Shown here: positions 2,595 through 48,373 of the stretch, one piece after another | Position numbering within the stretch: the stretch's first letter is position 1 | How the letters are laid out: each line of letters opens with the position of its first letter | Assembly (NCBI GenBank): GCA_030156895.1 | Contig: JASGLP010000003.1 | Span: 1 to 64,000, forward strand | Direction: 5' to 3' | Origin: Eubacteriaceae bacterium | Lineage (GTDB): Bacteria > Bacillota > Clostridia > Eubacteriales > Eubacteriaceae | DNA: 64,000 bases | Program-made: the position numbers and the translations under genes | The notes under the pieces: generated by a model | What the model was told of the DNA's origin: nothing | Seen by the model: only the letters and a program-made list of their open reading frames with translations | Database searches by the model: none

Positions 2595-2821
2595 AAAAGG
2601 CGATAAATCACCTTTTGAGACTGTAGACACCGTTGTTTTAGGCACTTGAGCACCGACAATTGGCTTTTCAGTTGGTTGCATCGGTGCGAACAGTTGCAAG
2701 AAAACCATGATCATTAGCGATTCCAAATTGAGCAACTGTACGCATCCGCAGCAATCGACGAAATCCAATTGGTCGGTGCGGAGTTTGTCTACACGCTGAA
2801 TAGGCGATCAATTCGCCTTTT
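2595..2821 (+). repeat. Dispersed terminator-flanked palindromic repeat, copy A
   Basis: One of five related elements in the window. A stem-loop at 2595-2616 (AAAAGGCGAT..) is repeated with small changes at 2799-2821. Between them lie the outer arms GCACCGACAATTGG (2650-2663) and CCAATTGGTCGGTGC (2765-2779) and the inner arms GCGAACAGTTGC (2686-2697) and GCAACTGTACGC (2732-2743). A middle stem pair reads GGTTGC (2674-2679) with GCAATC (2751-2756), where copies B and D have GTCTGC/GCAGAC. The stem is retained although the bases differ. It lies 9 bp after the gatB stop and just before rph. It encodes no protein. Confidence 0.88.
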
Positions 2822-18495: not shown

Positions 18496-18774
18496 ATGCA
18501 AAATGATGATGAAAAAAATTCAGACCACCAGATTTCTTTAACTGAGCAGGAAATCAAAGAGGAACTCCGTCGCTTATTCTTAGGCGGTGATGACTGGTCC
18601 AAGGAAGCCTGCATGGGCTATTTTCTAAAGGCTTGCCAAAAATCCGGTCTTGATATTCCCACCGTCCAGAACCTGGCTCTTATTTTATACCGCCTCTTCG
18701 ACGAAATGAGCATTGATGAAGCAAAACAATTTTATTTTGAAGACTGCCACGCAGTTCTGACCGGCCAAAAATAA
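18496..18774 (+). CDS. Small acidic protein of unknown function
   Basis: A 92-aa soluble acidic protein that I do not recognise. It begins with an unstructured charged stretch, then a helical region with an ELRRLFLGGDDWSKEAC segment and a C-terminal helix. It has no membrane segment. Start support is strong: an extended -10, AAAGGAG 8 nt before the ATG, and a stem-loop directly after the stop, which is the left flank of repeat copy B. It stands alone between two minus-strand units. Confidence 0.75.
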   Translation: MQNDDEKNSDHQISLTEQEIKEELRRLFLGGDDWSKEACMGYFLKACQKSGLDIPTVQNLALILYRLFDEMSIDEAKQFYFEDCHAVLTGQK

Positions 18775-19005
18775 AAGGTGCATTATCTGCGCTTTTTCAG
18801 ACTGAAGACAAAGTTAATACTGAATACCTGAGCACCGACAATTGGCTTTTCAGCTGTCTGCCTCGGAGCGAACAGTTGCTGGAAACCATCAATAATTAGC
18901 GATTTCAAATTGGGCAACTGTACGAGTCCGCGCGCAGACTGCGAAATCCAATTGGTCGGTGCGGGGTTTATCTACACACTGAGGCGCATTGTCTGCACCT
19001 TTTTT
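18773..19005 (+). repeat. Dispersed terminator-flanked palindromic repeat, copy B
   Basis: The second of five copies, in the same orientation as copy A, and perhaps the clearest. Flanking stem-loops are at 18773-18797 and 18982-19005. The outer arms are GCACCGACAATTGG (18832-18845) and CCAATTGGTCGGTGC (18948-18962). The middle arms GTCTGC (18856-18861) and GCAGAC (18934-18939) pair perfectly. The left flank folds with G-U pairs in the plus transcript of the 18496 gene, the right flank in the minus transcript of gspF. Each flank therefore serves the gene that abuts it. It fills the whole gap between two convergent genes. Confidence 0.9.
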
Positions 19006-27409: not shown

Positions 27410-27638
27410 AATCTGGCCTCTTGGTCAGATTCTGTGTTGCAAATAAACCCCGTACCAACCAATTGGAATCCGCTGTCTGCACGCGGATTCGTACAGTTGC
27501 AATTTGGGAATCAGCTAAATAATAGCGTTTTCCAGCAACTGTTCGCCCCGAGGCAGAACAGCTGGATCTCCAATCGTCGATACTCAGTCACATAAATTGA
27601 CTTTGTCTTTAAGTTTAATCTGGCCTTTCGGTCAGGTT
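27410..27638 (-). repeat. Dispersed terminator-flanked palindromic repeat, copy C
   Basis: The most diverged copy, inverted relative to A and B. Flanking hairpins 27410-27431 and 27617-27638 share AATCTGGCC..GGTCAG with different 4-nt loops and are direct copies of each other. The outer arms have drifted to GTACCAAC (27452-27459) and GTCGATAC (27576-27583). On the minus strand these still pair along all eight positions using one swapped A-T pair and two G-U wobbles. On the plus strand two mismatches arise. It lies between the convergent ACT regulator and GIY-YIG-like genes, and its right hairpin overlaps the last codons of the latter. Confidence 0.82.
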
Positions 27639-30297: not shown

Positions 30298-30957
30298 ATG
30301 CATCTGAGAATTAAACCCTGGGCTCGCCCGGAACTGGAAGCCAGCCATTTTTTCCAGGCCGAGCCATGGACACACAAAGGCCAGTGGCAAAAACTTTTTA
30401 ACAAAAATCAGCCACTCCATCTCGAGCTGGGCTGCGGTAAAGGGACTTTTATCGCCGAGCTGGGTTCTCGGAATCCCCAGACTAACTATCTGGCTATCGA
30501 TCTGATTGATGCAGTCTTAGGATTAACTAAACGTAATATCGAAGCCGCTTATCAAAAACAATTGCTTTCTATCGACAATATTCAGATTATGTCATGGGAT
30601 ATTGAGCGACTTGATCAAATTCTCGCACCTGAAGACCAAGTTGAAAGGATCTACATCAATTTTTGTAACCCCTGGCCCAAACGGCGACAGAACAAAAAAC
30701 GCCTGACCCATCCTAAGCAACTGGACAAGTATAAAACCCTTTTAAAAACAAACGGCGAAATACATTTCAAAACCGACAATGATGACCTTTTTATTGACTC
30801 AATTGAATATTTTAAGTCTTGTGGTTTTAATATTACAAGCCTGATTCCTGATCTTCACGCTTCTGATTACCCTGACAACATCGAAACTGAGCATGAAAAA
30901 ATGTTTTCTGCTCAAGGAATCCCCATCAAATTTTTGATTGCCCGCCCCGGTGAATAA
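30298..30957 (+). CDS. trmB: tRNA (guanine-N7-)-methyltransferase
   Basis: This SAM-dependent enzyme makes m7G46 in tRNA variable loops. The 219-aa protein has LELGCGKGTFIAELG as the SAM loop, the acidic NYLAIDLIDAV and the family signature INFCNPWPKRRQNKKRLTHP, followed by FKTDNDDLF. AAAGGAG precedes the ATG. The stop codon lies inside the left flanking hairpin of repeat copy D. Confidence 0.95.
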   Translation: MHLRIKPWARPELEASHFFQAEPWTHKGQWQKLFNKNQPLHLELGCGKGTFIAELGSRNPQTNYLAIDLIDAVLGLTKRNIEAAYQKQLLSIDNIQIMSWDIERLDQILAPEDQVERIYINFCNPWPKRRQNKKRLTHPKQLDKYKTLLKTNGEIHFKTDNDDLFIDSIEYFKSCGFNITSLIPDLHASDYPDNIETEHEKMFSAQGIPIKFLIARPGE

Positions 30958-31176
30958 CCTGGGGCTTAGATTATAAATAAACCCCGCACCGACCAATTGG
31001 ATTTCGCAGTCTGCGCGCGGATTCGTACAGTTGCCCAATTTGGAAGTACAAATAAACAGCATTTTCGAGCAACTGTTCGCCCCGAGGCAGACAGCTGAAA
31101 AGCCAATTGTCGGTGCTCAATCATTCAAAATTGACTTTGTTTCCAGTCTTTGCCCTGGTTAATTAATAACCGGGGC
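30944..31176 (-). repeat. Dispersed terminator-flanked palindromic repeat, copy D
   Basis: Orientation as C and E. The flanking hairpin GCCCCGGT..ACCTGGGGC (30944-30965) overlaps the trmB stop. The distal one (31152-31176, GCCCTGGTT..AACCGGGGC) is a good terminator followed by TTTTATTT. Between them are GCACCGACCAATTGG (30987-31001) with its mirror CCAATTGTCGGTGC, and GTCTGC (31009-31014) with GCAGAC (31087-31092). With the MarR promoter it fills the 392-bp gap after trmB. Confidence 0.9.
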
Positions 31177-48152: not shown

Positions 48153-48373
48153 CCTTTCTTTTTAAGAAAGTCAGTGCGTAGACAACCCCCGCACCGATCA
48201 ATTGGATTTCGTAGTCCGCGCGCGGATTCGTACAGTCGCTCAATTTGAAATCGCTAATTATTGACGTTTTCTAGCAACTGTTCGCCCCGAGGCGGACACT
48301 GAAAAGCCAATTGTCGGTGCTCAGGTAGATAAAATTAACTTTGTCTTCAGTCTGCCTTTCTTTTTAAGAAAGT
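48153..48373 (-). repeat. Dispersed terminator-flanked palindromic repeat, copy E
   Basis: The freshest-looking copy. The flanks 48153-48171 and 48355-48373 are an exact 19-bp direct repeat (CCTTTCTTTTTAAGAAAGT) that is itself a palindrome. Its ends carry TCAGTGCGTAGACAA and TTGTCTTCAGTCTG, inverted repeats of each other. The middle stem reads GTCCGC (48214-48219) and GCGGAC (48292-48297), where B and D have GTCTGC/GCAGAC, a compensatory pair change. It starts 1 bp from the MBL gene stop and fills most of the gap to Mrp. Confidence 0.92.

Follow-up and report, generated by a model that had tools for sequence, protein, structure and literature searches.

A short noncoding element of Acetobacterium inserts at transcription terminators and is flanked by duplicates of the whole terminator hairpin

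INTRODUCTION

Among described transposable elements, those closest to the one reported here are IS1272 and TnSha1, which target terminator hairpins, with deletion (PMC4923244). A route by which an IS1182-family element could duplicate its target instead, with the element ends joined to the 5' feet of a stem-loop and the whole stem-loop copied (pathway b), has been drawn as a hypothesis only; IS1272 was shown to replace the stem-loop instead (PMC5678879). The same paper cites palindrome insertion by some IS1182 members. No report of pathway b was found in the literature that we searched, with most subscription papers outside the reach of that search.

The starting point of this study was a 64-kb stretch of DNA from an Acetobacterium genome, referred to here as the window. 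The original prediction for it described five structured palindromic repeats at the 3' ends of genes and offered three readings of them: a nonautonomous mobile element, a structured small RNA, or a dedicated 3'-end structure. Here we examine what these repeats are, where they insert, and which transposases share their ends.

RESULTS

Five copies of an interspersed element in the window

All five predicted repeats are real. Their predicted spans, accurate to within a few bases, take in an element of approximately 184 bp plus one terminator hairpin at either side, and each copy in the window has this layout. The features are as follows.

2595..2616, plus strand: copy 1, left hairpin copy (AAAAGGCGATAAATCACCTTTT), a duplicated terminator hairpin
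2617..2798, plus strand: copy 1, MITE with left end GAGACTGTAGAC and right end GTTTGTCTACACGCTG
2799..2821, plus strand: copy 1, right hairpin copy (AATAGGCGATCAATTCGCCTTTT), a duplicated hairpin
18776..18797, plus strand: copy 2, left hairpin copy (AGGTGCATTATCTGCGCTTTTT)
18798..18981, plus strand: copy 2, MITE of 184 bp with convergent genes on both sides
18833..18962, plus strand: copy 2, conserved internal rod (covariance model R1, positions 1-130)
18982..19003, plus strand: copy 2, right hairpin copy (AGGCGCATTGTCTGCACCTTTT)
27410..27431, minus strand: copy 3, hairpin copy on the element's right side (AATCTGACCAAGAGGCCAGATT)
27433..27616, minus strand: copy 3, MITE in minus orientation, ends diverged
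27617..27638, minus strand: copy 3, hairpin copy on the element's left side (AACCTGACCGAAAGGCCAGATT)
30944..30966, minus strand: copy 4, hairpin copy (GCCCCAGGTTATTCACCGGGGC, in element orientation)
30967..31150, minus strand: copy 4, MITE in minus orientation
31152..31176, minus strand: copy 4, second hairpin copy (GCCCCGGTTATTAATTAACCAGGGC)
48153..48171, minus strand: copy 5, hairpin copy (ACTTTCTTAAAAAGAAAGG), exact 19-bp duplication
48172..48354, minus strand: copy 5, MITE in minus orientation
48355..48373, minus strand: copy 5, second hairpin copy (ACTTTCTTAAAAAGAAAGG), exact 19-bp duplication

Copies 1 and 2 are on the plus strand and copies 3 to 5 on the minus strand; the prediction had located all of them correctly and had missed the minus orientation of the last three. 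The palindromic arms that it named, such as GTCTGC..GCAGAC, are present in the copies. The reported proximity to stop codons was also borne out, as every copy in the window has at least one edge next to a stop codon and the median distance from stop codon to element is 27 nt genome-wide. In copy 4, the hairpin at 30944..30966 overlaps the stop codon of a gene (30298-30957) encoding a Methyltransf_4 domain. The window also contains a cluster of five tRNA genes at 54-666 on the minus strand.

RNA folding of the repeat gave -92.5 kcal/mol (z = -7.2) and -103.1 kcal/mol (z = -7.3), with dinucleotide shuffles as the reference, and is thus far from chance. Of the single rod of about 180 nt that had been proposed, the part conserved in structure measures about 130 nt. 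The outer 30 nt or so on each side, taken for rod in the prediction, are transposon ends, and the hairpins at the outermost edges, taken for part of the repeat, are duplicated target that lies outside the element.

Copy number, ends, and gene context

The source genome, a 3.0-Mb assembly of 101 contigs with an estimated completeness of 85%, contains this noncoding, multicopy element of 184 bp interspersed at no fewer than 101 distinct places, at least 70 of them near full length; both counts, which combine a search with the whole element and a search with each end, are lower bounds. At this density about two copies would be expected per 64 kb, so the description of the window as dense holds only in that five is somewhat high. 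The consensus reads CAGACTGAAGACAAAGTTAA...GGGGTTTGTCTACACACTG. The element begins with CAGACTGAAGACAAAG and finishes with GGGTTTGTCTACACACTG, and comparison of CAGACTGAAGACAAAG with CAGTGTGTAGACAAAC showed that the ends are inverted repeats (TIRs), although imperfect ones. Single-ended copies in the source genome were checked for a transposase-bearing version, and only decayed, short, or nested ones were found. As the prediction had stated, the repeat matches no RNA family: Rfam gave no match at the gathering score, and a permissive E value yielded chance matches alone. Of the gene pairs around elements in the source genome, 18 are convergent, 36 are tandem, and 2 are divergent.

Smaller modules were seen within or beside some copies. 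A nested structured module of about 88 bp (CGCGAAGGCAACGAGCCAA...TTGGCGACTGCCCGCG) sits inside some rods of the source genome (C21:47597-47857, C73:166-430, and C51:535-780); it distinguishes L222 from L227, the orthologous copy in L227 being without it. A palindromic module of about 20 nt (GGGTCTGACCCCTTGGTCA or its reverse complement) occurs at two rod positions in several species (L206, L228, L230, L234, and others). A 48-bp microelement consisting of two facing left ends of the transposon family lies beside a hairpin at L242 (G004:C115:4855-4902).

The target-site duplication is a whole hairpin

The two outer flanks of nearly every copy are one and the same hairpin, which differs from copy to copy (e.g., AAGCACCCGTTTTAATGGGCGCTT, then the element, then AAGCACCCGTTTTAATGGGTGCTTTTG). 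When the two flanks of each copy were aligned with one another, the median score was 16.5, compared with 6 for flanks taken from different copies. The match exceeded the 99% control in 60 of 69 copies, and the other 9 had no duplication above the control. In a single-contig Acetobacterium genome (G009), the hairpin was duplicated in 17 of the 19 copies that were read.

Boundaries were analyzed in 39 copies with clean edges (no more than 1 base from the element), in which the duplication spans 16 to 33 bp. Self-complementarity of the duplication was 0.57 to 0.60 when centered and fell to 0.31 or less at every shift of 1 base or more, and the maximum of palindromic symmetry coincides exactly with the element edges. 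The length of the duplication tracks the span of the palindrome, which was found independently (Spearman 0.67, P = 3e-6). The sequence before the left hairpin is A rich (62%) and that after the right hairpin is T rich (62%), which indicates that the hairpins are intrinsic terminators; the gene context agrees. These results identify the element as a MITE that sits at the base of intrinsic-terminator hairpins, with the whole hairpin as its target-site duplication. The 3'-end position results from insertion into terminators, and the suggestion of a dedicated 3'-end structure does not stand as worded.

IS1182-family elements share the ends and the target

Model searches identified IS1182-family transposases in genomes of the same genus. 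One of them (L167, in genome G012) is an intact 474-amino-acid ORF of the CAGACTGTCAAAAAA subfamily, scoring 361 bits on the NCBIfam IS1182 model with a cutoff of 270; its element has ends CAGACTGTCAAARAA and a hairpin, GAGCTGAATTTCTTCAGCTC, on either side. L152 is similar, and ends of the L152 type equal the MITE ends of several other species at 16 of 16 positions, forming a sister subfamily. For the MITE of the source genome, the same 16/16 agreement was found with repeated IS left ends (CAGACTGAAGACAAAGG) in G013 and G017; the right ends of the IS in G013 read GGGTTTGTCTTCGCTCTG. Six G013 copies of the IS, paired across contig ends, have perfect palindromic duplications of 42, 26, 21, 19, 18, and 15 bp. 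Like the MITE, these IS1182-family partner elements insert into palindromes.

The exactly matching CAGACTGAAGAC subfamily is represented by transposase pieces only (L181, L182, and G013 contig ends), whose scores are significant and below the IS1182 cutoff. Searches of the source genome, as assembled in 101 contigs at an estimated 85% completeness, returned no IS1182 transposase whose ends match. An IS5-type transposase there (L031) was considered as a partner and rejected, having unrelated ends and no hairpin duplication. The rod is not derived from the IS; hence, the MITE is not a simple deletion derivative. It is a MITE nonetheless by being short and noncoding, with TIRs, a target-site duplication, and ends common to an autonomous IS.

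Other IS1182 insertions in the genus take other forms. L154 (G012:C20) and L177 (G012:C49), of a different subfamily with ends GGGACCTGTGAAAAA, sit in the loop of a palindrome and duplicate only this 9-bp loop (GGATGCTTC and GAACCGTCC), which corresponds to pathway c as drawn in PMC5678879. At L168 (G011:C1:2963445-2965085), an IS1182 element lies between the palindrome arms ATGGCCGGAAT and ATTCCGGCCAT with no duplication, an arrangement that resembles stem-loop replacement. At L159 (G011:C1:899975-901615), the left end of an IS1182 element occurs three times in tandem, 89 bp apart, recalling the tandem left-end duplications of IS1272.

Empty sites contain a single hairpin

For the site at C42:22861, the sequence rejoined with a single hairpin served as the query. 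It matched the closest relative, G014, with 79% identity over all 520 bases, and the relative has one hairpin and no element there. At the groEL terminator, G017 lacks the IS that follows groEL in G013, and its site is 97% identical and has one hairpin; ten other species likewise have a single hairpin at this position. At the trmB site, occupied by copy 4, ten other species are without an element just downstream, and those downstream regions are not alignable. The clean empty-site comparisons are thus the groEL site for the IS and the C42 site for the MITE. The proposal of a nonautonomous mobile element is thus supported by inverted ends, by target duplications, by these two empty sites, and by an IS family whose ends match.

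A conserved, covarying rod inside the element

Across species, the rod of about 130 nt has a covariation score of 0.195, compared with 0.085 when shuffled (0/500) and at most 0.06 when slid, and 94.5% of cells are paired. In the source genome, the middle helix takes several forms with matching arms: TCTGC/GCAGA in 29 copies, TCCGC/GCGGA in 24, and GCTGC/GCAGC in 6. Diversity among 65 copies of that genome is 0.065 in the rod, compared with 0.17 to 0.18 for the ends and 0.29 for the apical loop, which is placed between the two rod strands. Copies there were found partly through their ends, a bias that works against the finding of greater variation in the ends than in the rod; in G009 the rod model served to find the copies, so rod conservation in that genome is not independent evidence. 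Unpaired positions of the rod are as conserved as paired ones.

The rod covariance model matched all 19 Acetobacterium genomes searched, with copy numbers per genome ranging from 8 to no fewer than 56. Beyond the genus, it gave weak matches in one genus of the family (g9; 8 in G026 and 1 in G032, with E values of about 1e-6) and no match in any other genome tested. When 84,980 species genomes were scanned for an exact pattern, the hits were confined to records named Acetobacterium and a few unclassified Firmicutes/Bacillota MAGs. The covariance model that had been proposed as a check returned a covarying rod, and copies beyond the five exist in the source genome and in related genomes; a lack of covariation, a lack of more copies, or a catalogued family, any of which had been named as counterevidence, was not encountered.

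What holds the rod constant? Gene conversion is an unlikely cause, since a variable loop sits between the two conserved strands, and template switching from arm to arm is disfavored because it should have erased the conserved bulges. The rod is likely under constraint, for the host or for transposition. Constraint for transposition alone would mean that the rod is needed in cis, as a structure bound by transposase or a host factor or as an RNA cofactor, and has no role in the host. Retention of the same rod with two different end subfamilies and the rarity of rodless short forms point this way. Against it, IS copies move without a rod, and rods are conserved in copies whose ends drift, leaving this reading possible but doubtful.

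A host role of the rod as RNA, and with it the structured small RNA of the original prediction, is also possible, as covariation and unusually low diversity leave room for one. The rod would then be a structured RNA selected by the host (a 3'-UTR module or a processed small RNA), with the transposon ends as a mere means of spread, and the same module would be delivered to the 3' ends of dozens of mRNAs, for example as a stabilizer or as a binding site for an RNase or protein. Covariation across species, the matched helix forms, diversity far below that of ends and loop, and presence in all 19 genomes speak for it. However, the elements in tandem gene pairs are not clearly biased in orientation (22 same, 14 opposite), the rod could also be held constant by selection on source copies that are actively moving, and comparisons of orthologues for selection on the rod, few in number, gave mixed results. 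We consider this reading unlikely. Also unlikely is a genus-wide RNA module: in every Acetobacterium species searched, terminator-targeting transposition may have put the one conserved, covarying rod of about 130 nt into the 3' UTRs of dozens of genes in each genome, where it may now be kept by selection for a host function such as mRNA 3'-end stability or RNase- or protein-mediated coregulation.

DISCUSSION

The best explanation of the data as a whole, to which we assign a probability of roughly 0.9, is a terminator-targeting MITE that an IS1182-family transposase mobilizes in trans, with duplication of the whole stem-loop. The transposase, provided by an IS located elsewhere or present in the past, would recognize the end of about 16 bp (CAGACTGAAGACAAAG, or CAGACTGTCAAAAAAG in the sister subfamily) and excise the element by its ends. 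The target is DNA able to form a stem-loop, in nearly all cases an intrinsic transcription terminator, and is presumably in cruciform form; the 3' ends of the element would be joined to the 5' feet of the stem-loop, and repair would then duplicate the whole of it. The A tract remains with the left hairpin and the T tract with the right one. Because the left hairpin is thus without a T tract and the right one without an A tract, mRNAs arriving from both directions are expected to include the rod: transcription would pass the hairpin that it reaches first, continue across the rod, and end at the more distant hairpin. The host gene would keep a terminator, and its mRNA would gain the rod as a 3' UTR.

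Two other classes of mechanism were weighed. A REP/REPIN-type element moved by a Y1 HUH (RAYT) transposase would account for a high-copy intergenic palindrome and for the small nested palindromic modules of some copies, but REP/REPIN elements are marked by having no long target duplication, whereas long ones are present here; the DDE-type inverted ends common to IS1182-family elements and the single-hairpin empty sites also disfavor it, and we judge it very improbable. CRISPR repeat duplication copies a whole palindromic repeat, and the likeness to the whole-palindrome duplication seen here could suggest Cas1/casposon-like integration, which is hardly credible given the IS1182-family elements that share these ends and duplications.

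Duplication of a whole palindrome of any length, from 15 to 42 bp, suggests that the target is chosen by DNA shape and not by sequence. The terminator is the landing site and is also copied, so insertion should cost the host little, and such a low cost would explain about 100 copies in 3 Mb. The element supplies the missing natural example of an IS1182-family pathway that had been proposed only on paper.

IS1272 and TnSha1, IS1182-family elements of staphylococci, are alike in their transposase family, in their inverted ends of about 16 bp, and in targeting stem-loops, confirmed transcription terminators among them, without a consensus in the target sequence (PMC5678879, PMC4923244). IS1272 is autonomous, whereas the Acetobacterium element is 184 bp and noncoding. 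IS1272 deletes or replaces the stem-loop with no target duplication; the Acetobacterium element departs from this type of replacement, in which the stem-loop is lost, and duplicates it whole. Bacterial MITEs, as described in a review (PMC10969869), are likewise short and noncoding, with inverted ends, direct repeats, high copy number, and a stable RNA fold. The passages of that review on terminators and target sites mention no duplication of a whole terminator hairpin. Unlike them, the element has a duplication of variable length, set by the target palindrome, and its inside is a covarying rod more conserved than its ends. SPRITE, BOX, and RUP of Streptococcus pneumoniae resemble it as high-copy intergenic structured repeats with nested insertions and a terminator-like member (PMC3049150, PMC10969869); going by the review descriptions, they are set apart by host, sequences, and ends. 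In being a MITE, the element is ordinary. What is unusual is a target defined by shape, a variable duplication of the whole hairpin (at about 60 sites, with two empty sites), and a covarying rod found throughout the genus.
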